Source: Nitrospirales bacterium
GTDB lineage: Bacteria; Nitrospirota; Nitrospiria; Nitrospirales; UBA8639
Reading direction: 5' to 3'
Assembly: GCA_021604105.1 (NCBI GenBank)
Contig: BQIW01000006.1
Location: forward strand, 1-64,000
Length of the DNA: 64,000 nt
The position numbers and the translations under genes were made by a program. Shown here piece by piece: positions 34,150-59,209 of this stretch (within the stretch, counting starts at the first letter, position 1; each line of letters begins with the position of its first letter). Under the pieces are notes generated by a model, which saw only the letters and a list, made by a program, of their open reading frames with translations, did not search any database and was not told where the DNA came from.

Positions 34150-35106
34150 TTATCTCGGACCAGAGTCCGGAACGTCGACATATTCTTCATCCCCGCTAGA
34201 CCCAGCGCCCACTGGTTGCGGAGCTAAGGGGGGACGCCGGACTACCGGTTGGCCGGAGGCCGGAGTTGGCGCCGTAGCATCCTCACTTTCTGGAGATTTC
34301 TTCTTGCCAAAGACCTGGGCACTGATAATCCCCACCTCATAAAAGAAATACATCGGGATGGCCATAATACATTGATTAAAGGGATCAGGCGTGGGGGTAA
34401 GGATTGCTGCGAAGAGAAATGACCCCAAAAATGCCCATTTCCGGTATTTTCGTAAAATAGGAGCATCCACCCACCCTAATTTCGCCATCAAGGTCAACGC
34501 GAGCGGCACTTCAAAAATCAACCCAAAGACCAACAGGAACCAGAGAATAAACCCCACATAATTGGCGATAGAAATTTGTGCAATAAATCCCGAAGCCAGG
34601 CCATAGGAAATTAAAAAATGCAACGCGAAGGGCAACACGACAAAGAAACAAAAGGTCAATCCCAAATAAAAGGCGACGGTGCTAATCGCAGTGAAAGGCC
34701 CGACAAATCGGCGTTCCTGGGCATGTAACCCCGGAAGAACAAATTGCCACACTTCCCACAACCAGTGCGGGGTCGACAAGACCAGGGCGCATAAGCCGGC
34801 CACCTTCACATTTTGCCACAAGGCTTCAGCCGGGGAGAGAAAGACGAAGGGAATTTTTGGCAAATCCGACGGCATCCATTCCCATGAATCTAAAATAAAA
34901 TAATTTTGCAGAGGAATCCGAAGCCAGGACACCAGTGTATCCGCATAAAAGAATGTCCCAACAAAAACACAGGCCATGACAATGACTGCCCGCGTGAGTC
35001 GCCATTGGAACTCTTGCAAATGCTCCATGACGGGCATTTTCTTGTCTTCCAGTGGTTTAAAGACTTTCTCTTCAAACCAGGAGCCCAGCTTACTTTGTTT
35101 GGCCAT
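34150..35106 (-). CDS. tatC: Sec-independent translocase TatC
   Basis: MPVMEHLQEFQWRLTRAVIVMA; LWEVWQFVLPGLHAQERR; FGLIFEVPLALTLMAKLGWVDAPILRKYRKWAFLGSFLFAAILTPTPDP. Confidence 0.95.
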   Translation of the reverse strand: MAKQSKLGSWFEEKVFKPLEDKKMPVMEHLQEFQWRLTRAVIVMACVFVGTFFYADTLVSWLRIPLQNYFILDSWEWMPSDLPKIPFVFLSPAEALWQNVKVAGLCALVLSTPHWLWEVWQFVLPGLHAQERRFVGPFTAISTVAFYLGLTFCFFVVLPFALHFLISYGLASGFIAQISIANYVGFILWFLLVFGLIFEVPLALTLMAKLGWVDAPILRKYRKWAFLGSFLFAAILTPTPDPFNQCIMAIPMYFFYEVGIISAQVFGKKKSPESEDATAPTPASGQPVVRRPPLAPQPVGAGSSGDEEYVDVPDSGPR

Positions 35107-35170
35107 GTTACTCCCACACCCTCATAGGTCGAGGGGGGCTCAGAGTCGCCCCCCTCAGTGCTCTCATCCC

Positions 35171-40461: not shown

Positions 40462-41736
40462 TTAAAAGGTCGCTCCAACGCCTAATGTCCAGACTGCATC
40501 CGGACGGAGCCCTTCATTTTTATTGAGAGGAAGCTGGACTGCGGCCTGAAGCAAAGTGTTGGGAAGAGGAGCCCATTTTAACCCGGGAGCCAAATCGACG
40601 ATGTCCTTTCCACTGTTATCCTTATCGTCCAATTCGTGACGACCCAGAAGATCAAGTGAGAAAGCAAAGACCGGAATCGGTGCCAGATCAAATCCTGCCA
40701 CATAGGTAAAAAGATTCAGTTCGGATTTATTGTTGACGAGCACGAAGCCCGTATTCACATGGGGTCCAATCATGCCGATCGGGGATGAATAGTATTTAGA
40801 AGCCACAGCCAATCCCTCAAATTTGAATTCTCCGACTCCCATGAAATTATCTTCGTTTCCCGTGGGAAAAGAAATGCCCCCACGTACGCCCAAATCCGGA
40901 AGGATCTCATGATTTTTTAGAAAGTTATATTTGGTTCGCAGAAGAACGTCGCCGATCCCGGTTTTGTCCTCAGACGAACTGTCTTTTGAAGGATCTCCCG
41001 TACCGGGTGTTGTGCCATTGATCACGTAAATACCACTGCAATTTCCACCCTGGGTACAAGGGACGCCGTTGGCATCAAGCATGGTTGCCTTCGCTTTGGC
41101 CTTGATCTTGTTATTGATGAGAGGAACCAAAAGATTGACATCCCAATTATCCGTGAGGCCATACGTGCCAAAAAATCCCACAAAATTGGTGATCACTTTG
41201 ACGTCCAGGTTAATTTGTAATAACTCATCTAATCCTGGGGCATTCGGTGGAGTTCCAGGTCCGGCTGTGGGAGAGACATCTTCACTGAGAGAGGATAGCT
41301 TCTGCCCATTAAATTTCTTGTAATTGGCGTTGGACCAGACGACCTGGAAATCAAATCGCCCTTTTCCAAGCGTGTCCGCCCGTTCCGCAAATAGAGGACC
41401 GAGGCTTTTGGTGACTTCAACCGGAACTCCCCGTTCAACATCAAACCGATAGGCTGCCACAGTAGAGTTCACCGCAAATTGCCCTGTTTGTGCCCCAATG
41501 CCATTGGTCAATTCATTAAATGAATTAAATACCGCATTGCCAAAATCATTGGACCGATTGCCTGCAAAATTAGGATCTGTTTGAAACCCATTTCCCCCAT
41601 AAAGACCAGGAATCACGTTTTTTAAGTCTTTGGCCATAGTCACAGGTGGACCGATGACGAGCATCACCAACAGAAGGATGCAAGCCAACGGCTGAATTCC
41701 TCTACATAAAGGGTTCTGCATGAGCCAATAGGTCAT
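40462..41736 (-). CDS. Predicted outer-membrane beta-barrel (MetA/phenol-degradation-like transporter)
   Basis: Signal peptide, FGTYGLTDNWDVNLLVPLI, GIGDVLLRTKYNFLKN...GVRGGISFPTGNEDNF, terminal aromatic F. Confidence 0.7.
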   Translation of the reverse strand: MTYWLMQNPLCRGIQPLACILLLVMLVIGPPVTMAKDLKNVIPGLYGGNGFQTDPNFAGNRSNDFGNAVFNSFNELTNGIGAQTGQFAVNSTVAAYRFDVERGVPVEVTKSLGPLFAERADTLGKGRFDFQVVWSNANYKKFNGQKLSSLSEDVSPTAGPGTPPNAPGLDELLQINLDVKVITNFVGFFGTYGLTDNWDVNLLVPLINNKIKAKAKATMLDANGVPCTQGGNCSGIYVINGTTPGTGDPSKDSSSEDKTGIGDVLLRTKYNFLKNHEILPDLGVRGGISFPTGNEDNFMGVGEFKFEGLAVASKYYSSPIGMIGPHVNTGFVLVNNKSELNLFTYVAGFDLAPIPVFAFSLDLLGRHELDDKDNSGKDIVDLAPGLKWAPLPNTLLQAAVQLPLNKNEGLRPDAVWTLGVGATF

Positions 41737-42365
41737 GATTGTTCCTCATAAATTAAAATAAACAAAAGGGGTTCCCCAAAAAATTCCCCATAAAGGATTT
41801 GGCGCAATGATCCAGGCGCAGATATCGACTTTATCTATGGGTTTGGGGGATGGTACGCTCAACACCACAGGTCCCAAAGAAGGGCTCCACTCACACCCCT
41901 CTTCAGCTTCAGTGGGTATCAGATGGAATCATATCCAAAAAACGCAATGCTGACGAAGGAGAGAAAACCAGGCGATCCTATAAACTCTTTTCCATGAAGT
42001 CAATCCATTATTTCCCAGAGAGACCGCCCGCACCTGTTCTCCACTCAGACAGAGGCTCCCCATTTTGGAAAATGATCGACAGGCTTCAAGAAGGACACGT
42101 CTCTTAGGTCTTGATTTGTGCACAAAGCTAACATTGGCATCTCTGACGCAAAACCCAGTAAACTGGTCCCAAGAATCGACGACGCCACGACCAACACATA
42201 CCAATTCCTCCTTCTTTCACTCGTTGCCGTACCCGTGGACCGAACGACACGAAAAAAGGAGACCAAAGAGGAAATTCTGATCCATAAAGAGAATGGGCCA
42301 TTGCCTATTTTCTTCCGGAAATTTTCTTGAGTAAAATCGACAGAAGTCACAGGAGCAAGTGATCG

Positions 42366-45300
42366 GTGTTCGATCGCGTTCTACATCATCCCATCCTGAG
42401 AAGAGGATCCCTCCTCTGCCCCAGCTTCCTGCTGCTTTCTCTCTTGTTATTCAGTTTGATCCCGTTGCTCCTCCCGGTCCAGGTCTATGCTGATACCTCA
42501 AGTATTACCGTCAACGGAAAAACGCCTGCCCAATATATAACCGCGACCCAAGGAAAATCCTGGGCGGTGATCATAGGAATTGATAAATATCTGAACCTCG
42601 CCGGCTTGGCCTATGCGGTTGATGATGCGAAATCCGTGGCTCGCATGCTCGGGCGTCAAGGATTTACGATCACATCACTCTACAACACCCAGGCCACCAA
42701 AAAAGCGATCCTTAGGGAATTGCGCCAAAACCTTCTTTCAAAAGTGCAAAAAGACGATCAAGTGCTCATCTTTTTTGCCGGTCATATTGGAGAAACTCCC
42801 GGCACAGGAAAACAACAACCCGCGGGTTATATGATGCCCGTCGATACCGAACCAGGACTCCTTGCGGACACCGCAATCAACGTGGACCTTCTTCGTGAAC
42901 TTTCGGAAACACTTCCGGCGAAACAGGTTTTATTTCTCATTGATATTTGTTATGGAGGGATTGCTGGTCGCAGCCAGCGTTCATTGCCCCCCATGACCGG
43001 TAATTATTTGAAGATGATTGGCCGTGAACCTGCACGCCAATTGATTACCGCAGGAGGGACCGGACAACAAGCCTTAGCCGGACCAAAGTGGAAACATAGC
43101 GTGTTTACCTATTATCTTCTGGAAGGCATTGGGAAGGGCAAGGGTGACCTGAACGGCGATGGCATCATTCCCGCGTCCGAACTCTTTGCCTTTCTCGATG
43201 AGCACGTGCAATCGGCAGCTCTCACCCATAAACATGTGCAACAACCGGAAATGTGGGCGTTGAAGTCGGAAAAAGGAGAATTTGTCTTTATTCCTAAGAA
43301 AATTTCCTCCACCCCCCAAGTCGCGAACACCCCCAATCGTCAAGAAAAAACAAGCAATCCTGCATCTGGTACAGTCGAGACCATTGTCGGACTCCTAAAG
43401 AGTTTTGGCAATCCCTTGGATATCTTCAACAACGACGTTCCATCTGGAAAGGGCGAGCAGGCTGATAAACAAAAAACGATAGAAGAAGAGGCCGCGGCGC
43501 TAGAAGCAGAGCGGGAAAAATTTGAATTGCAGGCTCTTCAATCCTTAAAGGAGCAACGACAGCGGGAGAAGGATCTTCAAGCGCAACTGGCCGAAGCCCA
43601 GCGCCTGGCCGCGGAAGAGGAACGCCGGCGGGTCGCCGCCGAACAGGCCCGCCAGGAAAAAGAAGCCCTCTTAGTGCAACAACAAGCCGCCCTAAAAGCT
43701 CAACAAGCCAAACTCGCCGCGGAGGAGGAGCGCCGCAAACAACTCTTGGCCCAACGAGAACGGGAATTTCAGACTCAACTGGCCATAGCCCAGCGAATGG
43801 TAGCCGAAGAAGAACGGCGACGAGTGGAAGCGGAAAGGGCCCGACTCGCTTCAGAGGAGCAAAAACGAAAACAACTCTTGGCGGAACAGGAACTTACGCG
43901 TCAAACTCAACTCGCTGAAGCTCGACGCATGGCCGAGGAACAGGCCAGAATTGAAGCCGAGAAACAGCGCCGAAAGGAGGCAGAACTCACCCGCCAAACC
44001 CAACTGGCTGAAGCTCGACGCATGGCCGAAGAACAGGCCAGAATTGAAGCCGAGGAACAGCGCCGCAAGGAGGCAGAACTCACCCGCCAAGCCCAATTGG
44101 CTGAAGCCCGGCGAGTGGCTGAAGAACAGGCCAGAATTGAAGCCGAAGAACAGCGCCGGAGGGAAGCCTTGGCCAAACAGGAACTTACCCGCCAACTCCA
44201 ATTGGCTGAAGCCCGACGAGTGGCTGAAGAACAGGCCAGAATTGAAGCCGAGAAACAGCGCCGAAAGGAGGCAGAACTCACCCGCCAAACCCAACTGGCT
44301 GAAGCCCGACGAGTGGCTGAAGAACAGGCGCGCATTAAACAAGAGGCGGCGATGAAAGCCGAAAAGGCCAGACTCGCGGCCCTGGAAGAAGAGCGGGAAC
44401 AAGTCGCCCGGCTCAAGCAAGAGGCGGCGATGAAAGCCGAACAGGCCAGACTTGCCGCGAAAGAGCAACAACGTCAGCAAGCTGAGGAAGCGCGTCGCCT
44501 GGCTGAGTTGGAAGAAGAGCGACGACGAGTCGCCGCAGAACGGGAGCGCAAGGAACTAGAGGAGAAACTTGCGCAACCACAAATCGTCCCGAATGGTGGA
44601 AATGATCCGGCAGAGCCTTCTCCTGAAAGTTCCCCATCGCCTGGAACCATTTCCGCGTTCACTCCTACTCCCCCATCCCCCTCTGCCATTGAACCATCCT
44701 CGAATGAAAGTTCGGGGTTTTTCGGATTTTTTAAGAATATGTTCCACCAAGACCCTACCTCGCAGCCGGCGACCAGCGAGCAACCGAATGGATCTCAACC
44801 GGAACCTATCCTGGAAGCACGGCTCCATCAACAAGAGTTACCTGACGCCGTTCAATCTGCCCTGTCAGAAAATGATGATGTCCCCATGATCTTGATTCCC
44901 GCAGGGAAATTTAGGATGGGAAGTACTGAAGATCAAATTTCCAGCGTCCTGAAAAATTTTGAAGGAATCCAGTTCAATGCTTTTCGAGCCGAAATTCCTC
45001 AACGCCAGATTCAACTCAATGCCTATTACATTGATCAATATGAGGTCAGCTATCGCCACTATCGCGCATTTCTGGAATCTACCGGTCGGGCACCTCCTGC
45101 ATTCTGGGAGAATGAACGATTTCACAAACCGGATCATCCGGTCCTTGGAGTGACCTGGTATGATGCAACCGCCTATTGCACCTGGGCGGGCAAACGCCTT
45201 CCAACCGAGGCAGAATGGGAACACGCCGCCAGAGGATCCCAGGACTATGCCTATCCTTGGGGGAATTCGTGGGATCCTCAACGAACCAATACGGCGAGTT

Positions 45301-45662
45301 ATTGGGCAGGCAAAAATTTTTCATCCATGGCGAAATGGGGTGAATGGATGCAAACCGCGTTGGATCGTGGGAAAGCCGGCCCGTTAGAGATTGGCACATT
45401 CTCGAATGGCGTCAGTCCATTTGGTGTTCATGACATGGCCGGAAATATATCTGAGTGGGTCTTCGATTGGTATGCGCCATACGAGAGCCAACTGATGCTC
45501 ATTCACAATCCCAACGGGGCGGATTCCGGGACTATGAAAGTGCATCGTGGAGGATCTTGGAGTGTGAGTTCGATTTTTGCCCGGTCGACCTATCGGGCGC
45601 GAGAAAATCCTGAGAAGAGAAGTCCATACATTGGAATGCGTTGCGCCAAATCCTATCAGTAA
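42366..45662 (+). CDS. Predicted-exported caspase-like (C14) / coiled-coil / FGE-sulfatase-fold fusion protein
   Basis: Signal segment LLLFSLIPLLLPVQVYADTS; caspase region WAVIIGIDKYLNLAGLAYAVDDAKSVARML with candidate dyad FFAGHIG and LIDICYGG; ~330-aa charged coiled coil; C-terminal MILIPAGKFRMGS...LPTEAEWEHAARG...VHDMAGNISEWVFDWY...VHRGGSWSVSS. Confidence 0.9.
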   Translation: MFDRVLHHPILRRGSLLCPSFLLLSLLLFSLIPLLLPVQVYADTSSITVNGKTPAQYITATQGKSWAVIIGIDKYLNLAGLAYAVDDAKSVARMLGRQGFTITSLYNTQATKKAILRELRQNLLSKVQKDDQVLIFFAGHIGETPGTGKQQPAGYMMPVDTEPGLLADTAINVDLLRELSETLPAKQVLFLIDICYGGIAGRSQRSLPPMTGNYLKMIGREPARQLITAGGTGQQALAGPKWKHSVFTYYLLEGIGKGKGDLNGDGIIPASELFAFLDEHVQSAALTHKHVQQPEMWALKSEKGEFVFIPKKISSTPQVANTPNRQEKTSNPASGTVETIVGLLKSFGNPLDIFNNDVPSGKGEQADKQKTIEEEAAALEAEREKFELQALQSLKEQRQREKDLQAQLAEAQRLAAEEERRRVAAEQARQEKEALLVQQQAALKAQQAKLAAEEERRKQLLAQREREFQTQLAIAQRMVAEEERRRVEAERARLASEEQKRKQLLAEQELTRQTQLAEARRMAEEQARIEAEKQRRKEAELTRQTQLAEARRMAEEQARIEAEEQRRKEAELTRQAQLAEARRVAEEQARIEAEEQRRREALAKQELTRQLQLAEARRVAEEQARIEAEKQRRKEAELTRQTQLAEARRVAEEQARIKQEAAMKAEKARLAALEEEREQVARLKQEAAMKAEQARLAAKEQQRQQAEEARRLAELEEERRRVAAERERKELEEKLAQPQIVPNGGNDPAEPSPESSPSPGTISAFTPTPPSPSAIEPSSNESSGFFGFFKNMFHQDPTSQPATSEQPNGSQPEPILEARLHQQELPDAVQSALSENDDVPMILIPAGKFRMGSTEDQISSVLKNFEGIQFNAFRAEIPQRQIQLNAYYIDQYEVSYRHYRAFLESTGRAPPAFWENERFHKPDHPVLGVTWYDATAYCTWAGKRLPTEAEWEHAARGSQDYAYPWGNSWDPQRTNTASYWAGKNFSSMAKWGEWMQTALDRGKAGPLEIGTFSNGVSPFGVHDMAGNISEWVFDWYAPYESQLMLIHNPNGADSGTMKVHRGGSWSVSSIFARSTYRARENPEKRSPYIGMRCAKSYQ
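43935..44330 (+). repeat. Imperfect ~93-bp tandem repeats encoding the coiled coil
   Basis: Four copies of EEQARIEAE(K/E)QRR(K/R)EAELTRQxQLAEARR(M/V)A, with nearly identical DNA; one copy is 35 aa instead of 31. Confidence 0.9.
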
Positions 45663-45759: not shown

Positions 45760-48573
45760 CTACTGAATCTCCCAATCCGTGGAGGTCGACCCTGGAAAAC
45801 CCACCGAGGAAATCGTCAATCCGTCCATCAGCCAGACCGCTACCGTCCCATTTCTGCTATTGCGCCAAATGACATCCGCCTTGCCATCCCCGTTCACATC
45901 CCGGGCCTCTGAAATGTGCCAGGCCACCGGCACTCCACCCGGAAAACCTGAGGCCGCCATGGCGGTCCCGTTCATCAACCAGATCGCCGTATTGCCGTCA
46001 GTCGTATTGCGCCAAATCAGGTCCGCCTTGCCATCCCCGCTTACATCACCCACACCCGTGATTTCAAAAGCCGGCGAGGCACTTCCAGGAAAGCCCACAG
46101 CTGTCACCGACAATCCGTTCATCAGCCACACGGCCACTCCCCCACTGGTGCCATTGCGCCAAATCACATCGGCCTTGTTATCCCCGTTCACATCACCCAC
46201 CCCCGCAATGTGCCAGGCCACCGGCACTCCACCCGGAAAACCTGAGGCCGCAATCGTGGTTCCATCCATCAACCAGATCGCCGTACTGCCGTCAGTCGTA
46301 TTGCGCCAAATCAGGTCCGCCTTGCCATTTCCGTTCACATCGCCCACACCCATGATCTTAAAATCCGTCGAGGCACTACCCGGAAACCCGGTGGAAATAA
46401 TTGTTAACCCATCCATCAGCCACACGGCCACTCCCCCACTGGTGCCATTACGCCAAATCACATCGGCCTTGTTATCCCCGTTCACATCGCCCACCCCCGC
46501 AATGTGCCAGGCCACCGGCACTCCACCGGGAAAGCCTGAGGCCGCAATCGTGGTTCCATCCATCAACCAGATCGCCGTGCTGCCATTAGAATTGTTCCGC
46601 CAAACCAGATCAGCTTTGCCATTGGCATCGAGATCTCCCAAGGCCGGTGCAGTTCTGGGTGGAACCAACGTCAAGGCCGTCGTCACAAAAAAGTCCGGAC
46701 CCGTGAGTTCCATCTCGGTTCTGGTTTGATTGTTCAGATTGATCCTTTCAAATAGAATATTTTTGGTAAATCCTGAGGTCACCTTATGCTGCCCGGAAAA
46801 ATGATACAGGAAGTCCGGTGACGTTCCCACACCAATGGTCTCACTTTCCCGGAAATCCGGTTGCCCCGCCACGGCACCGGCCGAGACATCCAGGAATTCC
46901 ATCGTAGCTCCCGTTGTTTTATTCACCCTATAAATCCGTGCCGGAAGCACCGACGTTCCCCCGGGCACCGGTCGGTTGTCCGTGATCACATAGAGAGTTC
47001 CGGCCGCATCAAACGCCAGGTCCATAAAGTTTCCTTGAAGTTTGGCCTTTTGGGTGGCCACCCCCGTCGTCGGATTAATCGTCACTAACCGGCGGATACT
47101 GTTCACTTCGGACGTCACGACAAGTAAGCCCCATAGCTGACCGGTTCCAGGCTCTGTCGCCAACCCACGCCCCCCTTCTAAGGATTCACCCGTCGATAAC
47201 GACAAAGGGATCTTGGCCAGCGTGGCACCGGTTTCGGGATTGAGCCGATACAGATTTGGCCGGGCTCCGGACTGTTGCCCAAGCATCAGCTCTTCCACGG
47301 AATACAACGTGGACCCGACAAAGGCCAATCCGTGCGTGCGGTGGGTCAAATCGGCAATTTTGGTTACCGCCCCATCAGTGCGAAGTCGGTAGAGGCTATT
47401 CACCAGCGGTCCGGTCTTGGGGTCATTTTGTACGCCCATGAGAAAAACTGGCGGTCCCGAGGAAATGACCAGAGCCACTGAACTCCCCGGAGTCACTTTT
47501 ATTCCGGCCACGGGCGTTTGACTGATGACGGTTCCGCTTGGCACCGTTTCGCTATTGGCGGTCGTCACAATCCCCACGGTTAAGCCCGCATCGCCCAGAG
47601 CCGTTTGGGCACGGCTCTGCGTCAAGCCTACGACATTGGGCACGGTCGTTCCCAGCGATACTACCAATGCAACCGCACTTCCAGGGTTCACAGTTGTGCC
47701 AGCCCCCGGGTTTTGACTCATGATTCTACCGGCCCCTACCGTAGCGCTATTGGCCGTGGTCACGGTTCCCACAGTTAAGCCTGCAGTGGTCAGGGCATTT
47801 CGGGCGTCAGCTTGTGTGCGACCAACAACATTCGGGACTTGTGCCCCTTGGGACACAACCAGGCCCACCGCGCTGCCCTCCGCCACCTTGGTTCCTGCTA
47901 CCGGATTTTGACTCAAAACCTTTCCTGTTGCTACAGAGATACTAATAGCTGTTATGACTGCCCCGACGGTTAAACCGGCTGTGGTAATTGCGGTTTGCGC
48001 GGCCGTCTGCGTTAAACCCACCACATTCGGCACCCCGTTGCCCAGTGACACCACCAGATCAATCGGACTCCCAAATGCCACACCGGTTCCCGCCGTGGGG
48101 TTCTGACTGATGACCCTGCCCTCCCCCACGGTAGCACTATTGACCGTCGCCACCTTCCCTACGGATAATCCTGCTTTGGTCAGATCCTTTAGGGCGTTAG
48201 CCTGTTTTCGACCAACAACGTCCGGGACGGCCACTCCGGAAACCACCAAATCAACCTTGGTACCCCGGATCACATTAATCCCTGCTGCTGGATCTTGCCT
48301 GATGATGGTCCCTGGCAGGACAGCCACATTATTAGCCGAGGTGACCTTTCCCACTCTCAGATTGGCTTTGACAAGATCCGCCTCCGCCTTAGCCTGTGAG
48401 CTACCCACGACATTGGGGATTTCGACGGCTCTTGCTGTTTCAGGTAAGGCACCGGCAAGAAACAGCAGACTTCCGAGGACGACGAGTTGTAAGACCATGC
48501 ACTTGAAACTCTGACGGGTTCCCCTGTTTGTGCAGTTCAAGCTCCCCTGATGCTGGACTGTCATTGCGTCCAT
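45760..48573 (-). CDS. Secreted PASTA(x5) / central propeller-like domain / FG-GAP-like (x6) protein, paralog A
   Basis: Signal peptide, then five ~65-aa VPNVVGxxQ...VVSxG units, then FLMGVQNDPKTGPLVNSLYRLRTDG domain, then six DxNGDGKADxIWRN blades. Confidence 0.92.
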   Translation of the reverse strand: MDAMTVQHQGSLNCTNRGTRQSFKCMVLQLVVLGSLLFLAGALPETARAVEIPNVVGSSQAKAEADLVKANLRVGKVTSANNVAVLPGTIIRQDPAAGINVIRGTKVDLVVSGVAVPDVVGRKQANALKDLTKAGLSVGKVATVNSATVGEGRVISQNPTAGTGVAFGSPIDLVVSLGNGVPNVVGLTQTAAQTAITTAGLTVGAVITAISISVATGKVLSQNPVAGTKVAEGSAVGLVVSQGAQVPNVVGRTQADARNALTTAGLTVGTVTTANSATVGAGRIMSQNPGAGTTVNPGSAVALVVSLGTTVPNVVGLTQSRAQTALGDAGLTVGIVTTANSETVPSGTVISQTPVAGIKVTPGSSVALVISSGPPVFLMGVQNDPKTGPLVNSLYRLRTDGAVTKIADLTHRTHGLAFVGSTLYSVEELMLGQQSGARPNLYRLNPETGATLAKIPLSLSTGESLEGGRGLATEPGTGQLWGLLVVTSEVNSIRRLVTINPTTGVATQKAKLQGNFMDLAFDAAGTLYVITDNRPVPGGTSVLPARIYRVNKTTGATMEFLDVSAGAVAGQPDFRESETIGVGTSPDFLYHFSGQHKVTSGFTKNILFERINLNNQTRTEMELTGPDFFVTTALTLVPPRTAPALGDLDANGKADLVWRNNSNGSTAIWLMDGTTIAASGFPGGVPVAWHIAGVGDVNGDNKADVIWRNGTSGGVAVWLMDGLTIISTGFPGSASTDFKIMGVGDVNGNGKADLIWRNTTDGSTAIWLMDGTTIAASGFPGGVPVAWHIAGVGDVNGDNKADVIWRNGTSGGVAVWLMNGLSVTAVGFPGSASPAFEITGVGDVSGDGKADLIWRNTTDGNTAIWLMNGTAMAASGFPGGVPVAWHISEARDVNGDGKADVIWRNSRNGTVAVWLMDGLTISSVGFPGSTSTDWEIQ
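47455..48423 (-). repeat. PASTA repeat array, 5 copies (approximate limits)
   Basis: Counted by eye in paralog A; ~65-aa / 195-bp unit. Confidence 0.85.
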
Positions 48574-48718: not shown

Positions 48719-51700
48719 CTACTGAATCTCCCAGTCTGAGGGAGCCGAGCCGGGGAACCCCACGCTTGAAATCGATGATCCATTCATCAGCCAGACGGCC
48801 ACTGTCCCGCTTCCCCCATTTCGCCAGATAACATCCGATTTGCCATCGCCGTTGATATCGCCGACTTGAGAAATCTGCCATGCCAGGGGTACCCCGCCAG
48901 GAAAACCGGGAGCAGCAATGACGGTCCCATTCATCAACCAGATCGCGGTACTGCCGTCCGTCGAATTGCGCCAGACCAGATCCGCTTTGCCATCCCCATT
49001 CACATCGCCGACCCCCGCAATCTCAAATGCGGTCGACGCACTGCCGGGAAAGCCGACCCCCGTGATACCTAATCCGTTCATCAGCCACACCGCTACGGTG
49101 CCGTTCCCACCATTGCGCCAGATGACATCCGCCTTACTATCCCCATTCACATCCCCGACACCTGAGATTTGCCAGCCTACCGGCACCCCGCCCGGAAAAC
49201 CAGGAGCCGCGATTTTCGTTCCATTCATCAGCCAGATAGCGGTACTGCCATCAGTTCTGTTGCGCCAGATCAGGTCGGCTTTCCCATCGCCGTTGACATC
49301 GCCCACACCCGCAATCTCAAACGCGGTCGTCGCGCTTCCGGGAAACCCCACGGCCGATACCGACACTCCGTTCATCAGCCACACCGCCACAGTGCCACTT
49401 GTGCCATTGCGCCAGATGACATCCCCCTTGCCGTCTCCATTCACATCGCCCACACCCGCAATCTTCCAGGCCGCTGGCACCCCGCCTGGAAAGCCGGAAG
49501 CCGCAATCCTGGTTCCATTCATTAACCAGATGGCCGTGCTGCCATCTTGGGTGTTTTGCCAGATCAGATCGGTCGTGCCGGACGCATCCAGATCGGCCAA
49601 AGCCGGAGTACCTGCACCGGTATTCGTATTTGTGGGTGGCACCAACGTCAAGGCTGTCGTGACAAAAAAGTCCGGGCCCGAGAGCGCAATGGCTTTTCTG
49701 GCCTTCGTGGTTCGATGGATCTGCTCAAACAAAATATTCTTGGTAAATCCTGAGGTCACCTTATGTTGCCCGGAGAGATGATACAGGAGATCCGACGACG
49801 ACCCGACCCCTATGGTTTCACTCTCCCGGAAATTCGGTTGCCCCGCTACGGCGCCGGCCGAGACGTCCAGGAATTCCGTCGCAGCCCCTGTCGTTTTATT
49901 TACCGTATAAATCCGGGCCGGAGCCACAGCCCCACCCGATACGGGTCGGTTATCCGTGATTGCGTACAGCGTCCCGGCCGCATCAAACGCCAGGTCCATG
50001 AAGTTTCCAAACAGTTTGGCCTTTTGCGTGGCGACCCCGGTCGTCGGATTGATTGTTACCAGCCGGCGGATGGTATTGACCTCGGAGGTCACCACGAGTA
50101 ACCCCCACAGTTGGTTGGTTCCAGGCTCCGTGGCCAGACCCCGCCCTCCTTCTAAGGATTCCCCTGTTGATAAGGACAGGCGGATCGTGGCCAGCGTGGC
50201 CCCGGTGCTGGGATTGAGCCGATACAAATTCGGCGGAGTCCCCGCTGATTTCGCCAGCGTCAGCTCTTCTACGGAATACAAGTTGGACCCGACATAGGCC
50301 AAACCATGGGTACGGTGCGTGAGATCTCCAATCTTGGACACCACCCCATCGGTACGAAGGCGGTAGAGGCTATTCACCAGCGGCCCGGTCTTGGGATCAT
50401 TTTGCACACCCATCAGGAGAACCGGTGGACCCGAGGAAATCACCAAACCGACGCCACTACCTGGGGAAACATTCGTCCCCGCTGTCGGGTTTTGACTAAT
50501 CACATTTCCCGAAGCCACCGTGTCGCTAAAAACTGAGGTCACATTCTCCACCGTCAAGCCTACACCGGCAATGGCAGCTTGCGCCGCAGACTGCGATTTA
50601 TTGACCACATCGGGCACAGCCGTCCCCAGCGACACCACCAGAGCGACAGAACTGCCAGGGGCCACATTAGACCCCGCTGTCGGATCTTGACTGATAACGT
50701 TTCCGATGGCCACCGTCTGACTGTTGGCCGAAGTCACTGTACCAACTTTCAGCCCGGCTGAGCTCAAAGCGGTTTGTGCACTACCCCTCGAAATCCCGAC
50801 GACATCGGGCACCTTTGCCCCAAGGGACACGACTAGGGCCACGGCACTGCCTGCCTCCACCTTAGCCTCTGCAGCCGGATTCTGACTGATGACCCTGCCC
50901 GCCGCCACGGAACCACTATTAGCGGTCGTCACCCTGCCTAACGTTAGGTTGGCCTCGGTAATCGCTGTTTCCGCGGCAGCCCTGGTCAAGCCCACCACCT
51001 TCGGCACCACCACACCCAGAGATACCACCAATGTCACAGCGGTTCCTGGAGCCACATTAACCCCAGCCTCGGGAGATTGATTGATCACCGTGCCCGCCGG
51101 CACGGTCGTACTGGTCGCGCTCGTTATCGTCCCCAGGGTTAATCCCCCACTGGTAATGGCTGTTTCTGCCGCATCCTGCGTTAAGCCAACCACATCGGGC
51201 ACCTTTGCCCCAAGGGACACTTCAAGGGCAACGGCACTCCCCGGAGGCACATTACTCCCCGCTGTCGGCGTTTGACTGATTACGTTGCCGATAGGCACCG
51301 TGGCACTATTGGTTGTCGACCCTGTCCCCACTGTCAGACCTGCCGCTGTAATGGCGGTTTCCGCCGCGGCCTGGGCCAATCCAACCAGATCCGGGACTGC
51401 GGTGCCCAGAGACACCACCAGTGTTACAGCACTATCCGGCAATACATTGGTACCCGCTGCCGGCGTTTGACTGATTACAGTGCCGATGGGCACTGTGGTA
51501 CTATTGACTGTCGACCCTGTCCCCACTGTGAGACCCGCTGCCGTAATGGCAGATTCCGCGGACTCCTGTGCCAACTCCACGACATTTGGAACCGTCACTC
51601 CGGATATCACGAGGTCCACCGGACTGCCTGGTACCACATTGATCCCGGCCGCCGGATCCTGACTGATCACGCTGCCGATGGGCACCGTCGCACTATTGAC

Positions 51701-51964
51701 CGACGTCACAACCCCCACCGATAGATCCGAGTTGGTAATGGCCGCCTCTGCCGTTGCTTGTGGATTTCCGATAACATCGGGGACCTCTGCAGCGCCTGCC
51801 GTTGTAGGTAAAGTACAGATGAATACTAACAGGCACATAGGAACCATCAACTTCAAAAGAATCGAGGTGAGATCTCCTGGCAATTTCTGACAGGTGAAAT
51901 TCAACATAAATCTGTTCGTGTGCAGAATTTTCATCACGTTCATGTCATTGACTCCATTCAGCAA
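48719..51964 (-). CDS. Secreted PASTA(x7) / central propeller-like domain / FG-GAP-like (x6) protein, paralog B
   Basis: Same architecture as paralog A; seven PASTA units counted, six blades counted. Confidence 0.92.
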   Translation of the reverse strand: MLNGVNDMNVMKILHTNRFMLNFTCQKLPGDLTSILLKLMVPMCLLVFICTLPTTAGAAEVPDVIGNPQATAEAAITNSDLSVGVVTSVNSATVPIGSVISQDPAAGINVVPGSPVDLVISGVTVPNVVELAQESAESAITAAGLTVGTGSTVNSTTVPIGTVISQTPAAGTNVLPDSAVTLVVSLGTAVPDLVGLAQAAAETAITAAGLTVGTGSTTNSATVPIGNVISQTPTAGSNVPPGSAVALEVSLGAKVPDVVGLTQDAAETAITSGGLTLGTITSATSTTVPAGTVINQSPEAGVNVAPGTAVTLVVSLGVVVPKVVGLTRAAAETAITEANLTLGRVTTANSGSVAAGRVISQNPAAEAKVEAGSAVALVVSLGAKVPDVVGISRGSAQTALSSAGLKVGTVTSANSQTVAIGNVISQDPTAGSNVAPGSSVALVVSLGTAVPDVVNKSQSAAQAAIAGVGLTVENVTSVFSDTVASGNVISQNPTAGTNVSPGSGVGLVISSGPPVLLMGVQNDPKTGPLVNSLYRLRTDGVVSKIGDLTHRTHGLAYVGSNLYSVEELTLAKSAGTPPNLYRLNPSTGATLATIRLSLSTGESLEGGRGLATEPGTNQLWGLLVVTSEVNTIRRLVTINPTTGVATQKAKLFGNFMDLAFDAAGTLYAITDNRPVSGGAVAPARIYTVNKTTGAATEFLDVSAGAVAGQPNFRESETIGVGSSSDLLYHLSGQHKVTSGFTKNILFEQIHRTTKARKAIALSGPDFFVTTALTLVPPTNTNTGAGTPALADLDASGTTDLIWQNTQDGSTAIWLMNGTRIAASGFPGGVPAAWKIAGVGDVNGDGKGDVIWRNGTSGTVAVWLMNGVSVSAVGFPGSATTAFEIAGVGDVNGDGKADLIWRNRTDGSTAIWLMNGTKIAAPGFPGGVPVGWQISGVGDVNGDSKADVIWRNGGNGTVAVWLMNGLGITGVGFPGSASTAFEIAGVGDVNGDGKADLVWRNSTDGSTAIWLMNGTVIAAPGFPGGVPLAWQISQVGDINGDGKSDVIWRNGGSGTVAVWLMNGSSISSVGFPGSAPSDWEIQ
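50430..51790 (-). repeat. PASTA repeat array, 7 copies (approximate limits)
   Basis: Counted by eye in paralog B; spurious antisense ORFs at 51285 and 51480 are spaced 195 bp, matching the unit. Confidence 0.85.
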
Positions 51965-52240: not shown

Positions 52241-55200
52241 CTACTGAATCTGCCAAACTGAGGATGCCGAGCCAGGGAAACCCACGGCCGAAATTGACAA
52301 CCCGTTCATCAGCCATACCGCAACAGTACCGCTCGTGCCATTGCGCCAGATGACATCCGCCTTGCCATCCCCATTCACATCGCCGACTTGTGAAATTTGC
52401 CATGCTAGGGGTACCCCGCCAGGAAAACCGGGGCCGGCAATGGTGGTTCCATTCATTAACCAGATGGCCGTGCTGCCATCAGTCCTGTTTCGCCAAACCA
52501 GATCGGCTTTGCCATCCCCATTCACATCACCCACGCCTGCGATCTCAAATGCCGTCGACGCACTACCGGGAAAGCCGACCTCGGTGATACTTAAACCGTT
52601 CATCAACCATACGGCCACGGTGCCTACGGCGTTCCGCCAAATGACATCCGCCTTGCCATCTCCATTCACATCGCCCACGCCCGCAATCTGCCAGGCCAAA
52701 GGCAACCCGCCAGGAAAACCGGAAGAGCCAATGGCAGTCCCATTCATCAACCAGATCGCCGTGCTGCCATCATTCTGGTTGCGCCAGACCAGATCCGCTT
52801 TGCCATCCCCATTCACATCGCCGACTCCCGCAATCTCAAACGCTGTTGACGTGCTTCCGGGAAAACCCAAGGTCGTCACCGATATTCCGTTCATGAGCCA
52901 CACGGCCACGGTGCCGGTGGCATTCCGCCAGACGAGATCGGCCTTGCCATTGCCGTTCACATCGCCTACGCCCGCGATCTGCCAGGACATCGGAACACCC
53001 CCCGGAAAGCCGGAGGCGGCGATCGTCGTTCCATTCATCAACCAGATCGCCGTACTGCCATCAGTTGTATTCCGCCAAATCAGGTCGGTCGTACCGGACG
53101 CATCCAGATCGCCCAGGGCAGATACATTCGGACTCATGGGTGGCACCAAGGTCAAGGCCGTGGTCACAAAAAAGTCCGGGCCGGTGAGTTCCATCTCGGT
53201 TCTGGTTTGATTGTTCAGATTGATCCTTTCAAACAGAATATTTCTGGTAAATCCTGAGGTCACCTTATGCTGCCCGGAAAGATGATACAGCAGGTCAGAG
53301 GCAGTCCCCACCCCAATCGTTTCACTTTCTCGAAAATTCGGTTGCCCCGCCACGGCGCCAGCCGAGACATCCAGAAATTCCGTCGTAGTCCCGGTCGTCT
53401 TATTCACCGTATAAATTCTGGCCGGAGACACGCCTCCCCCCGAAACCGGTCGGTTATCCGTAATCGCATACAGCGTCCCGGCCGCATCAAAGGCCAGATC
53501 CATAAAGTTTCCAAACAGTTTGGCCTTTTGAGTAGCCAGACCCGTTGTCGGATTAATCGTCACTAACCGCCGGGCATTGTTTACTTCGGACGTCACCACC
53601 AGCAACCCCCACAGCTGATTGGTCCCAGGCTCCGTGGCCAGCCCTCGTCCCCCAACTAACGATTCGCCCGTGGACAAGGAAAGGGAGATCGTCTCCAGTG
53701 TGGCACCGGTGTCGGGATTGAGCCGATACATCTTCGGCGGGGCCCCAGCCTGTTGCGCAAGCGTCAGTTCTTCCAAGGAATACAAGGTGGACCCGACAAA
53801 GGCCAAGCCATGCGTGCGATGCGTCAGGTCTGCGATTTTGGTCACCACTCCATCTGTGCGAAGGCGGTAGAGGCTATTCACTAGCGGCCCGGTATTAGGA
53901 TCATTTTGCACCCCCATAAGAAAAGCCGGCGGTCCGGAGGAAATCTCCAGGGCCACCCCGCTGCCTGGAGCCACATTCGTCCCCGCTAACGGGTTTTGAC
54001 TGATCACGGTTCCCAGGGGTACGGTATCGCTAAAAACCGGGGTCACTGTCCCCACAGTAAGGCCCGCCGTGATCAAAGCCGTTTGAGCTATACTTTGTGT
54101 CAAACCCACAACATCTGGCACCTGAGCTCCAAGCGATATCACCAGGGCTACCGTACTGCCAGGCGCCACATTGTTCCCGGCTGTCGGATTTTGACTAATG
54201 ACAGCACCAATTGCCACAGTGGGACTCGTGGCGGTCGTCACGGTCCCCACTATCAAGCCCGCCGTAGTAATTGCAGATTGCGCCGCTGCCTGCGCCAAGC
54301 CCACCACATTCGGGACTGCGGCACCGAGGGAGACGACCATATTCACGGCACTACCCTCCGTCACGCTAGTTCCTGAAGAGGGAGTTTGACTGATGACTCT
54401 TCCAATGGACACCGTCGGACTTGTGGCGGTCGTCACCGTCCCCACTGTCAAGCCCGCCGTGGTAATCGCGGATTGCGCCGCCGCCTGCGTTAAACCCACC
54501 ACATCCGGTACCACCGGCCCCAAGGACACCACCAAGGCCACAGCACTGCCTGGCGCTACATTGCTCCCGGCCTCTGGATTCTGACTGATGACATTTCCAG
54601 GGGGTACCGTCGGACTCGCGGTAGTCGTCACATCCCCCACTGTTAAACCGACATTCGTAATGGCTGTCTGGGCGGCGGCTTCCGCCAAGCCCACCACATT
54701 AGGCACCGCAGTGCCCTGGGAGACGACAAAATTCACGGCGCTGCCCGCATTGACACTGGTTCCTGGAGCAGGAGTTTGACTGATGACCCTTCCGATTGCC
54801 ACCGTCTGACTATTGGTTGAGGTCACAGTGCCCACGGTCAAGCCGGCATTGGTAATTTCGGTCTGCGCGGCAGTCTGCGTTAAACCCACCACATCCGGAA
54901 CAGCAGGCCCCAGCGACACCACGAAAGCCACAGCACTGCCTGGCGCTACATTGTTCCCGGCCCCTGGATCCTGACTGATGACATTCCCGGCCGGCACCGA
55001 TGGATGACTGGCTGTTGTGATGGCCCCTATCGTCAACCCGGCATTGGTAATCGCCGTTTGGGCAGCCGACTGTGCCATGCCCACCACATCCGGCACCGCA
55101 GTTCCCAGGGACACCACGAAAGCCACGGCACTACCTGGTTCCACATTGCCCCCTGCTGCGGGGTTCTGACTGATAACCGTCCCAATAGGTACAGTGGCAC

Positions 55201-56095
55201 TATTCGCTGACGTCACCGTCCCAACCGTAAGCCCCGCGTTTGTGATGGCGGTTTGGGCATTTCCCTGTGTGAACCCAACCACATCCGGCACAACCGCGCC
55301 CAGAGACACCACCAAGGACACCGCACTGCCAGCCTCCACATTGGTCCCCGCCACTGGATTCTGGCCGATGACGTTTCCAATGGCCACCGTTGTACTATTG
55401 GCTGACGTCACCGTCCCCACTGCCAGGTTGGCACTGGAAATCGCCGTTTGCGCGGTGCCTTGGGCCAACCCCACGACATTTGGCACCGCGATACCCAGAG
55501 AGACCACCAAGGCGACCGCATTACCCTGAAAAACATTGGTCCCCGCAGCCGGATTCTGATCGATGATGTTTCCAATAGGCACGGTCGCATTATTCGCTGA
55601 CGTCACCGTCCCCACCGTGAGATCCGCATTCGTGATGGCAGTTTGGGCCGCCGCCTGTGCAAATCCCACCACATTCGGTACCGCCACTCCAGAAATTACA
55701 AGATCCACCGGACTGCCCGGTACCACATTGATCCGCGCTGCCGGATCTTGGTTGATAACGTGGCCAATGGGCACACCACCATCAATGGCCGCCGTCACAA
55801 CTCCCACAGTGAGACCGACGTTTATAATATCGGACTCTGCTGTAGCCTGTGGGCTCCCGATAACATCCGGAACTTCTATGGCTCTTGCTGTTGCTGGAAA
55901 TATTAAGTTGAAGAAAAAGAGGCTTACGGGAACCACCAGCCACAAAAAGATCAACTTGTGACCTCTTTCCAATTTCTGGTGGGTTAGATTCAACCCGATC
56001 AGGTGCTGAACCTTCATCACATCCCTAAAGGATCCGGTCGTGGATAGACCTAAGTGGCCGAAAGATATCTCATGATGCGCACAAGAGAAACACAA
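52241..56095 (-). CDS. Secreted PASTA(x10) / central propeller-like domain / FG-GAP-like (x6) protein, paralog C
   Basis: Ten PASTA units counted; six blades. Likely start MKVQHLIGLN at 56017 with upstream AGGGA. Confidence 0.92.
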   Translation of the reverse strand: MCFSCAHHEISFGHLGLSTTGSFRDVMKVQHLIGLNLTHQKLERGHKLIFLWLVVPVSLFFFNLIFPATARAIEVPDVIGSPQATAESDIINVGLTVGVVTAAIDGGVPIGHVINQDPAARINVVPGSPVDLVISGVAVPNVVGFAQAAAQTAITNADLTVGTVTSANNATVPIGNIIDQNPAAGTNVFQGNAVALVVSLGIAVPNVVGLAQGTAQTAISSANLAVGTVTSANSTTVAIGNVIGQNPVAGTNVEAGSAVSLVVSLGAVVPDVVGFTQGNAQTAITNAGLTVGTVTSANSATVPIGTVISQNPAAGGNVEPGSAVAFVVSLGTAVPDVVGMAQSAAQTAITNAGLTIGAITTASHPSVPAGNVISQDPGAGNNVAPGSAVAFVVSLGPAVPDVVGLTQTAAQTEITNAGLTVGTVTSTNSQTVAIGRVISQTPAPGTSVNAGSAVNFVVSQGTAVPNVVGLAEAAAQTAITNVGLTVGDVTTTASPTVPPGNVISQNPEAGSNVAPGSAVALVVSLGPVVPDVVGLTQAAAQSAITTAGLTVGTVTTATSPTVSIGRVISQTPSSGTSVTEGSAVNMVVSLGAAVPNVVGLAQAAAQSAITTAGLIVGTVTTATSPTVAIGAVISQNPTAGNNVAPGSTVALVISLGAQVPDVVGLTQSIAQTALITAGLTVGTVTPVFSDTVPLGTVISQNPLAGTNVAPGSGVALEISSGPPAFLMGVQNDPNTGPLVNSLYRLRTDGVVTKIADLTHRTHGLAFVGSTLYSLEELTLAQQAGAPPKMYRLNPDTGATLETISLSLSTGESLVGGRGLATEPGTNQLWGLLVVTSEVNNARRLVTINPTTGLATQKAKLFGNFMDLAFDAAGTLYAITDNRPVSGGGVSPARIYTVNKTTGTTTEFLDVSAGAVAGQPNFRESETIGVGTASDLLYHLSGQHKVTSGFTRNILFERINLNNQTRTEMELTGPDFFVTTALTLVPPMSPNVSALGDLDASGTTDLIWRNTTDGSTAIWLMNGTTIAASGFPGGVPMSWQIAGVGDVNGNGKADLVWRNATGTVAVWLMNGISVTTLGFPGSTSTAFEIAGVGDVNGDGKADLVWRNQNDGSTAIWLMNGTAIGSSGFPGGLPLAWQIAGVGDVNGDGKADVIWRNAVGTVAVWLMNGLSITEVGFPGSASTAFEIAGVGDVNGDGKADLVWRNRTDGSTAIWLMNGTTIAGPGFPGGVPLAWQISQVGDVNGDGKADVIWRNGTSGTVAVWLMNGLSISAVGFPGSASSVWQIQ
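53935..55880 (-). repeat. PASTA repeat array, 10 copies (approximate limits)
   Basis: Counted by eye; antisense ORFs at 54198, 54393 and 54588 are spaced exactly 195 bp, matching the unit. Confidence 0.87.
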
Positions 56096-56176: not shown

Positions 56177-59100
56177 CTACTGAATTTCCCAATCGGAGGG
56201 AGCGGAACCCGGGAAACCCACAGTCGAAATTGACAACCCGTTCATCAACCAGACCGCTACTATGGCACTGGTATCATTGCGCCAGATGACATCGGCATGA
56301 CCATCTCCGTTCACGTCGCCGACTTGAGAAATTTGCCACGCTACGGGCACGCCCCCAGGGAAGCCGGCCGTGGTAATGGCTGTCCCATCCATTAACCAAA
56401 TCGCCGTACTGCCATTGCTCTGGTTTCGCCAGATCAAGTCCGCCTTTCCATCGCCATTCACATCCCCAACCCCCGCCATATCAAAAGCGGTTGGGGCAAC
56501 TCCGACAAAGCCTACGTCTGTCACCGATAACCCATTCATCAGCCATATAGCCACTCCCCCACTAATACCATTGCGCCAAATGACATCTGCTCTATTATCC
56601 CCATTGACATCGCCCACCCCCTCGAGTTGCCAGGCCACGGGCACTCCCCCCGGAAAGCCGGAGGCGGCAATTGTCGTTCCATTCATCAACCAAATGGCGG
56701 TGCTACCGTCAGTGATGTTACGCCAAACCAGGTCGGCTTTACCATCGCCGTTCACATCGCCCACGCCTGCAATCTCAAACGCCGTCGAAGTGCTTCCCGG
56801 AAAGCCAACAGCCGTCACCGACACCCCGTTCATGAGCCACACGGCTACGGTGCCGGTGGTATTATTGCGCCAGATGACATCCGCCTTGCCATCGCCGTTG
56901 ACATCGCCCACGCCCGCGATATGCCAAGCCCTCGGAACACCTCCCGGAAAGCCGGAGGCGGCGATTGTCGTTCCATTCATCAACCAGATCGCGGTGCTGC
57001 CATCACTCTGGTTACGCCATATGAGGTCGGCCGTGCCCGACGCATCCAGATCTCCCAATGCCGGAGGACCCGTAGGTGGCACCATGGTCAGGGCGGTTGT
57101 CACAAAAAAATCCGGACCTGTGAGGGCCATCGCGGTTCTGGCTTTTGTCGTCAGATGAATCGTTTCAAACAAAATATTCTTAGTAAAGCCTGTGGTTACC
57201 TTATGCTGCCCGGAGAGATGATACAATAGGTCGGAAGAAGACCCCACCCCGATCGTTTCGCTTTCTCGAAAATTCGGTTGCCCCGCCACGGCCCCGGCCG
57301 AAACATCCAGAAATTCCGTCGTAGCTCCTGTCGATGTATTCACCGTATAAATCCGCGCCGGAAACACCGCCGCCCCCCCTGGCACCGTTCGGTTGTCCGT
57401 GATCACATAGAGCGTCCCGGATTCATCAAATGCCAAGTCCATAAAGTTCCCAAACAATTTAGCCTTTTGGGTTGCCACCCCCGTGGTCGGATTAATGGTC
57501 ACTAACCGCCGCGCACTGTTCACTTCGGACGTCACGACAAGTAACCCCCACAGCTGATTGGTTCCAGGTTCCGTCGCCAGCCCTCGCCCCCCCTCTAAGG
57601 ATTCGCCCGTTGATAATGATAAAGGTATCCTGGCCAGCGTGGCCCCGCTTTCGGGGTTCAGCCTATACAAATTCGGTGAAGCTCCGGACTGCGGAGAAAG
57701 GGACAGTTCCTCGATGGAATACAACGTGGTCCCGACATAGGCCAAGCCATGCGTGCGATGAGACAATTCCCCAATTTTGGTCACTACTCCATCGGTACGA
57801 AGTCGGTAGAGGCTATTCACCAGGGGTCCGGTCTTGGGATCATTTTGCACCCCCATCAGAAAAACCGGCGGTCCGGAAGAAATTACCAGGGCTACCGAAC
57901 TGCCCGGATCCACATTGACGCCTGCTTTTGGATTTTGACCAATAACGTCGCCAATCGGCACCGTAGAACTAATGGTTGTCGTCACTATTCCCACGGTCAG
58001 TCCAGCCGTGGTCAATGCCTTTTGAGCATTGATCTGCGTCAAACCCACGACACCGGGCACCTGAGTCCCTAGCGATACTACTAGGGCCACTGCACTTCCC
58101 GGAGCCACATTGTCCCCCGCTGGCGGGGTTTGACGGATGATAGTACCAATCTCCTTTGTTGAACTCGTGGCAGTCGTCACCGTGCCCACCGTCAAGCCAG
58201 CATTGGTAATGGCGGTTTGCGCCGCGGGTTGCGTCAAGCCCTCAACATTCGGCACTGAAGCTCCAAGAGAAACGACCAGGTTCACTGCACTATCCGCCGC
58301 CACTTTGGTTCCTGGATCGGGAGTTTGACTGATGACTCTGCCAATAGGGACTGTCTGACTATTGGCGGATGTTACCGTGCCCAGCTTCAACCCTGCCGAG
58401 GAAAGCGCTGTTTGGGCCGCAGCCCGGGTTTTTCCCACGACATTCGGCACTACCGGACCTGTCGACACCACCAGGCTCACCGCACTATCCACCGCCACAC
58501 TCGCCCCCGCCGCCGGCGTTTGACTGATGACCCGCCCCGCGGCCACCGTGGCATGACTGCTCTCCGTGACGGTCCCTACCTTGAGCCCCGCATTGGTGAG
58601 CGCGGTCTGCGCCGCCCCCTGCGTGCTGCCCACCACATTCGGCACCGTCACCGGCGCCGGGCCTGTCGACACCACCAGGGCCACCGCACTATCCACCGCC
58701 ACACTCGCCCCCGCCGCCGGCGTTTGACTGATGACACTGCCCGAAGGCACCGTGGCATGGTTGGCAGTCGTGATGGGTCCCACCGCCAAACCCGCTCCTG
58801 TAATGGCTGACTCGGCCGCCCCCTGCGTGCTGCCCACCACATTCGGCACCGTCACCGGCGCCGGGCCCGTCGACACCACCAGGCTCACCGCACTGCCGGC
58901 CGCCACACTCGCTCCCGCCGCCGGCGTTTGACTGATGACACTGCCCGAAGGCACCGTGGCATGGTTGGCGGTCGTGATGGGTCCCACCGCCAAGCCCGCT
59001 CCTGTAATGGCTGACTCGGCCGCCCCCTGACTCAACCCAACCACATCGGGGACATCTTCAGCCCATACTGTGGGCAACGCGAAGGTGGGTAACAACATTC

Positions 59101-59209
59101 CCACCACAACCATGATCTTGAAAAGATGTATCAGCCAACTATGGGCTTTATCACTTTGTTTCAGTTTCCGGACATCATTAAGCTGTTGCTCTGCGGCGTT
59201 CATGCGCAA
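56177..59209 (-). CDS. Secreted PASTA(x6) / central propeller-like domain / FG-GAP-like (x6) protein, paralog D
   Basis: Six PASTA units counted; first units carry a GPAPVT linker; six blades; signal peptide MVVVGMLLPTFALPTVWAED. Confidence 0.92.
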   Translation of the reverse strand: MRMNAAEQQLNDVRKLKQSDKAHSWLIHLFKIMVVVGMLLPTFALPTVWAEDVPDVVGLSQGAAESAITGAGLAVGPITTANHATVPSGSVISQTPAAGASVAAGSAVSLVVSTGPAPVTVPNVVGSTQGAAESAITGAGLAVGPITTANHATVPSGSVISQTPAAGASVAVDSAVALVVSTGPAPVTVPNVVGSTQGAAQTALTNAGLKVGTVTESSHATVAAGRVISQTPAAGASVAVDSAVSLVVSTGPVVPNVVGKTRAAAQTALSSAGLKLGTVTSANSQTVPIGRVISQTPDPGTKVAADSAVNLVVSLGASVPNVEGLTQPAAQTAITNAGLTVGTVTTATSSTKEIGTIIRQTPPAGDNVAPGSAVALVVSLGTQVPGVVGLTQINAQKALTTAGLTVGIVTTTISSTVPIGDVIGQNPKAGVNVDPGSSVALVISSGPPVFLMGVQNDPKTGPLVNSLYRLRTDGVVTKIGELSHRTHGLAYVGTTLYSIEELSLSPQSGASPNLYRLNPESGATLARIPLSLSTGESLEGGRGLATEPGTNQLWGLLVVTSEVNSARRLVTINPTTGVATQKAKLFGNFMDLAFDESGTLYVITDNRTVPGGAAVFPARIYTVNTSTGATTEFLDVSAGAVAGQPNFRESETIGVGSSSDLLYHLSGQHKVTTGFTKNILFETIHLTTKARTAMALTGPDFFVTTALTMVPPTGPPALGDLDASGTADLIWRNQSDGSTAIWLMNGTTIAASGFPGGVPRAWHIAGVGDVNGDGKADVIWRNNTTGTVAVWLMNGVSVTAVGFPGSTSTAFEIAGVGDVNGDGKADLVWRNITDGSTAIWLMNGTTIAASGFPGGVPVAWQLEGVGDVNGDNRADVIWRNGISGGVAIWLMNGLSVTDVGFVGVAPTAFDMAGVGDVNGDGKADLIWRNQSNGSTAIWLMDGTAITTAGFPGGVPVAWQISQVGDVNGDGHADVIWRNDTSAIVAVWLMNGLSISTVGFPGSAPSDWEIQ
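57870..59055 (-). repeat. PASTA repeat array, 6 copies (approximate limits)
   Basis: Counted by eye in paralog D; first two units nearly identical. Confidence 0.85.

Follow-up and report, generated by a model that had tools for sequence, protein, structure and literature searches.

Bacterial caspase homologues have been discussed mostly as cell-death or defence factors. Fusions of caspase and FGE domains were described in 2012, together with N-terminal helices or signal peptides and the abundance of metacaspases in Nitrospirae; FGE was the fifth most frequent partner domain of prokaryotic metacaspases (PMC3501461). For archaeal orthocaspases, a 2019 publication described FGE domains as well as EF-hand motifs, and for cyanobacterial pseudo-orthocaspases it described signals of the A-x-A type (PMC6426788). 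In T. brucei MCA2, basic P1 residues are bound by Asp95 and Asp211 (PMC6426788), and the Gly adjoining the catalytic His is described in a review of clan CD as structurally conserved in all families (PMC4357240). The DNA analyzed here, a stretch of 64,000 nucleotides referred to as the window, comes from a 4.9-Mb assembly of a Nitrospirales genus whose named close relatives are Nitrospirota/Nitrospirales MAGs; the host is a relative of the nitrite-oxidising Nitrospira bacteria. It encodes a caspase-FGE protein whose arrangement, consisting of a long helix, an H-I-G insertion and a link to surface proteins, was not found in the literature on metacaspase-FGE proteins (PMC3501461; PMC6426788). 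Nothing specific was found in the literature on secreted orthocaspases, periplasmic single alpha-helices and Nitrospira FG-GAP sorting tails.

The gene (42366..45662, forward strand) is an open reading frame for a 1098-aa protein with a GTG start, preceded by AGGAG. Along the protein come a signal peptide, a C14 caspase domain, a long charged helix and, at the C-terminus, an FGE fold (Table 1). This reading frame and the order of caspase-like domain, helix and FGE fold had been proposed in an initial annotation, and were confirmed by the ORF call and by Pfam matches to Peptidase_C14 and FGE-sulfatase, both well above the cut-off. Against four orthologues, dN/dS was 0.13–0.16 for the caspase domain and 0.08–0.17 for the FGE domain. 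Both domains are under purifying selection, which indicates a gene beyond chance. A small ORF upstream (42045-42350, reverse strand) is probably not a gene, since its reading frame is broken in most orthologues. Rfam detected two tRNAs and no other RNA elements over the window, and the caspase matches among plasmid records were distant only (<60% identity).

Table 1. Coordinates of the caspase-FGE gene features and of the neighbouring genes in the window.
Feature	Position	Strand	Evidence or remark
AGGAG motif	42351-42355		10 nt 5' of GTG
Signal peptide, residues 1-42, predicted cut VYA|DTS	42366..42491	+	Hydrophobic core and small-x-small site
Caspase (C14) domain, residues 65-296	42558..43253	+	Pfam E 1.3e-16; AlphaFold2; Foldseek
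His140-Ile-Gly, one residue inserted ahead of the usual Gly	42783..42791	+	35-row alignment
Asp193-Ile-Cys195, catalytic Cys and acidic S1-pocket residue	42942..42950	+	Asp 35/35, Cys 34/35
EF-hand-type Ca2+ loop DLNGDGIIPASE, residues 261-272	43146..43181	+	Pattern in 27/35 relatives
Long charged helix, residues 364-737, single-alpha-helix pattern	43455..44576	+	Pro/Gly/Cys-free run of 374 aa
FGE/SUMF-fold domain, residues 841-1095, without FGE catalytic cysteines	44886..45650	+	Pfam E 1.7e-56
Second FGE-fold protein, N-terminal membrane segment	39294..40367	+	Pfam E 3e-56
Outer-membrane-type beta-barrel protein (Phenol_MetA_deg-like)	40462..41736	-	Pfam E 1.8e-5
Exported PASTA-propeller-FG-GAP protein 1	45760..48573	-	
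FG-GAP C-terminal module of array protein 1	45763-46656	-	Equivalent ends in 48719-51964, 52241-56095, 56177-59209
Exported PASTA-propeller-FG-GAP protein 2	48719..51964	-	
Exported PASTA-propeller-FG-GAP protein 3	52241..56095	-	
Exported PASTA-propeller-FG-GAP protein 4	56177..59209	-	

The signal-peptide-like start was judged by hydropathy and a small-x-small scan, which bore out the cleavage site VYA-DTS named in the initial annotation. A hydrophobic N-terminal segment directly preceded the caspase domain in 20/20 homologues scanned, including distant ones with other C-terminal halves. The caspase-FGE protein is predicted to be exported, its signal-peptide-like start being conserved; absence of a signal peptide, which had been named beforehand as a point against export, was not seen. 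The AlphaFold2 model of the caspase domain (pLDDT 86, pTM 0.88) was matched by Foldseek to MALT1 paracaspase, GSU0716 (3bij) and yeast, Candida and trypanosome metacaspases with E-values from 1e-9 to 7e-13, and the family profile matched metacaspase-1 (E 1e-14). By its predicted fold and dyad, the domain is assigned to peptidase family C14. In a 35-row alignment of relatives, the catalytic His140 was kept in 35 and Cys195 in 34 rows, the Asp193-Ile-Cys195 segment aligning with DSCHSG of metacaspases. The His (FFAGHIG) and Cys (LIDICYGG) that had been picked as the catalytic pair were hence the right ones, and a degenerate dyad was not observed in the window protein. In L049 (G085), the catalytic Cys is replaced by Gly, and that protein is likely a pseudo-caspase. 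Two acidic S1 residues, Asp87 and Asp193, were invariant across the 35 relatives and correspond to Asp95 and Asp211 of T. brucei MCA2 by motif alignment (PMC6426788). Judged by sequence, the window protein thus carries the two S1 Asp residues that mark the Arg/Lys preference of metacaspases and orthocaspases. The C14 feature of a Gly directly after the catalytic His is absent from the window protein, a displacement by the inserted Ile that had been overlooked when the active site was first described. This insertion was confined to nine of the 35 rows, all of the window clade, while the Gly follows the His directly in G007, a genome outside the clade, and in distant relatives (one has HA instead).

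Between the two domains, the Pro/Gly/Cys-free run spans 502–532 residues in four complete orthologues and is shorter in the window protein. Charge pairs at i,i+4 in the window helix were opposite rather than same in a ratio of 65:8, and opposite pairs also dominated at i+3. Hydrophobic 3.5-residue periodicity was not detected in the window protein and two clade orthologues (z from −2.3 to 1.4), and a heptad or TolA-like coiled coil was rejected for the window clade on this ground. The helix corresponds in pattern to a charged single alpha-helix (SAH-like), so that of the TolA-like coiled coil of ~330 aa in the initial annotation the long helix stands, with 374 aa, and the heptads do not. Some heptad signal was seen in the G007 helix (z 3.7 with the ILMVF set), on account of which a mixed helix (SAH and heptad) is possible. 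At 0.15 nm/residue, these helices would extend for about 56–80 nm. The FGE fold was supported by Pfam and by PDB sequence matches, among which human FGE was the closest (127 bits), in agreement with the FGE/SUMF assignment made earlier. That assignment had missed the replacement of both catalytic cysteines, which we take to be C336/C341 in human numbering: GGSWSVSSIFA is aligned to GGSYMCHRSYC of human FGE. FGE catalysis was rejected, as the cysteines are absent, and the domain may instead have a binding role. Its C-termini were near-identical across orthologues from different species. In G064, a caspase with a signal peptide is fused to an FGE domain that is 54% identical to the second FGE-fold protein encoded upstream (Table 1). 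On sequence, this is a Rosetta-stone joining of a signal-peptide caspase with an FGE protein of this type.

The caspase locus is a syntenic chromosomal site near an HtrA-type protease, TatC and MoeA. The HtrA-type protein, a PDZ protease beside TatC (34150-36694, reverse strand), lies a few kilobases from the caspase gene and is syntenic in the clade. A block of a dehydrogenase, the membrane-anchored FGE protein, the outer-membrane-type barrel and the caspase was common to ten other genomes of the clade. The PASTA-propeller-FG-GAP array follows the caspase gene in four long-contig clade genomes (G019, G011, G015 and G003), and a separate contig of G009 joins the FGE end of the gene to an array protein; array proteins thus follow in all five clade genomes with sequence past the gene, and in G007. 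Short contigs of G002, G004, G013, G017 and G018 stop inside the caspase gene, placing the array outside the synteny comparison there. Among 98 relatives, the caspase orthologue and a strong barrel match occurred in the same 12 genomes (12/12), and the propeller domain occurred in seven, all with the orthologue (7/7), plus one weak unrelated match in G060. A lack of co-occurrence with the array genes was hence not seen. The locus genes are divergent or convergent and do not form a single operon, and an operon with the array was rejected because the caspase gene and the array are convergent.

G007 lies outside the clade, with TatC and MoeA at 85–86% and as distant as in the orthologue-negative genomes. 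Three of its contigs, C76, C37 and C12 (L095, L056, L096), have overlapping ends and look like one locus equivalent to that of the window; the C76/C37 overlap of 141 bp was checked, and C12 was joined to C76 by a shared protein end. Barrel, caspase and propeller/FG-GAP proteins were found together there despite different flanks, which speaks for a functional tie that goes further than mere synteny, with data from one genus. Since all these genomes fall within one genus, shared ancestry explains part of the co-occurrence. The G007 array proteins carry InlB-type repeats in place of PASTA, so the conserved partner of the caspase is judged to be the propeller plus FG-GAP module and not PASTA as such. 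The link to a PASTA array suggested in the initial annotation holds as co-occurrence, with this change of partner.

The FG-GAP C-terminal module has six repeats in ~298 aa and usually ends in ..WEIQ at the very C-terminus. Many exported proteins in each genome share it: in the complete genome G019, about 16 distinct ones carry it, and it also occurs at L118, L119, L121-L125 and L095. Its N-terminal partners are unrelated to one another (multicopper oxidase, purple acid phosphatase, Ig/fn3, InlB repeats and PASTA), and the G007 locus likewise encodes a multicopper oxidase bearing this tail. The model of the module is a beta-propeller (pLDDT 79), with GlcNAc-binding PVL-type lectins among its PDB matches. 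This module merits a separate study.

We consider that the protein may well be an exported cell-envelope cysteine peptidase of the orthocaspase/metacaspase type, a reading to which we give about an even chance. That it is inherited along with large surface proteins suggests a role in the envelope, not in cell death or defence. The protein would be exported by Sec and cut by signal peptidase after VYA; Ca2+ outside the cytoplasm would bind the 261-272 loop and order the active site, and the enzyme would cut after Arg/Lys. The FGE domain may bind an envelope partner, and the helix would hold the protease at a distance of 56–80 nm from this anchor. Its putative substrates or partners would probably be found among the envelope proteins inherited with it, namely the outer-membrane-type barrel and the surface proteins of the propeller/FG-GAP type. 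It counts against this reading that other Nitrospirales have signal-peptide caspases without these partners, the propeller protein being absent there. Also counting against it are the H-I-G insertion, the array linkers, in which no Arg/Lys is conserved, the divergent and convergent orientation of the genes, and the confinement of the co-occurrence to one genus. A whole conserved family of caspase homologues with predicted export and with envelope genes as co-inherited partners offers a concrete candidate function other than cell death. In the H-I-G insertion there is also a natural experiment on a glycine that is described as conserved in the whole of clan CD.

Whether the enzyme is active is the largest uncertainty of this analysis. 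The H-I-G insertion breaks the conserved His-Gly adjacency, so activity may be weak or lost, and the protein could be a catalytically dead or weak pseudo-caspase that serves as an envelope binding scaffold by means of the Ca2+ loop, the helix and the FGE fold. An inserted Ile, seen in the window clade only, would spoil the active-site geometry, given the structural conservation of the Gly in clan CD (PMC4357240); pseudo-variants are also common, the dyad being kept in only 57% of Nitrospirae metacaspases (PMC3501461), and the FGE domain likewise lacks its catalytic cysteines. However, His, Cys and both S1 Asp were unchanged in all clade members at 73–88% domain identity, whereas in a dead enzyme the dyad would be expected to disappear, as it has in other pseudo-orthocaspases. 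As the dyad is not decaying and the caspase domain is under purifying selection, the enzyme is probably active rather than inactive, proteolysis being likely but not secure, and we regard the scaffold reading as possible but doubtful.

The initial annotation had suggested a possible envelope processing protease, and one form of this idea is a maturation protease or sortase with the PASTA/propeller/FG-GAP proteins as its direct substrates. These are adjacent to the caspase gene and co-occur with it in all seven propeller genomes, including G007 with its otherwise different surroundings. Nevertheless, the linkers between PASTA and propeller and between propeller and tail, several of which were missed by the text pattern used, showed no conserved Arg/Lys, and this leaves direct processing of the array unproven. 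It is also not supported by three genus members (G010, G016 and G020), which carry FG-GAP-tailed proteins without a caspase orthologue, and we hold such direct cutting to be unlikely. A cytoplasmic defence or programmed-death effector, similar to the caspases of conflict systems, would agree with a match to the PADLOC 'caspase' model (E 1e-12), though this model is generic. The conserved signal-peptide-like start speaks against it, as does the syntenic site, which is unlike a variable defence island. A diversity-generating-retroelement target was rejected as well, because the C-terminal end of the FGE domain hardly varies among orthologues and the dN/dS of the domain is low. We consider an effector of this kind highly improbable.

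Bacteroidetes type IX secretion employs the caspase-fold sortase PorU, the FGE-fold lipoprotein PorK and C-terminally tagged cargo. The exported caspase-fold and FGE-fold proteins, the outer-membrane barrel and the cargo sharing a C-terminal domain resemble this system by analogy only. Por_Secre_tail (PF18962) gave no match in G000, G011 and G019, while a control genome matched, and membership in the type IX system was rejected; a SprA_N search of the same three genomes gave no match, nor did any control genome match, so that it had no positive control. A Nitrospirota surface sorting that is type-IX-like but unrelated, in which caspase-fold and FGE-fold proteins and the barrel mature or anchor FG-GAP-tailed exports, has in our estimate a slim chance. 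The C-terminal domain is similar to the formylglycine-generating enzyme (SUMF1) in sequence and fold, but unlike SUMF1 it has lost both catalytic cysteines. Related proteins are the signal-peptide caspases of Nitrospirales (G089, G068, G064, G094, G010 and G092), whose caspase domains are about 38–57% identical and which share the signal-peptide-like start, the dyad and the EF-type loop. Three of the six are fused to FGE, and the others have Sel1-like or further C-terminal regions; in contrast to the window protein, they have a canonical HG and lack the long helix and PASTA/propeller neighbours. Given these varied C-terminal regions and the unrelated neighbours in the wider order, the caspase family probably predates its association with the surface proteins. 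A second long caspase family (open frame of ~1180–1230 aa, C-terminal caspase domain, about 33% identical; L070, L071, L043-L046, L048 and L050) is widespread in the same bacterial family. The window protein agrees with prokaryotic metacaspase/orthocaspase-FGE proteins in its C14 His/Cys dyad, acidic S1 residues and C-terminal FGE fold (PMC3501461; PMC6426788), and with many prokaryotic metacaspases and orthocaspases in its N-terminal helix or signal peptide. Unlike them, it has a long charged helix between the domains and the H-I-G insertion, and its link to propeller/FG-GAP surface proteins and an outer-membrane-type protein is conserved. The caspase-FGE fusion and its N-terminal signal were thus already known, whereas the long-helix insertion, the H-I-G and the conserved surface-protein context are new.
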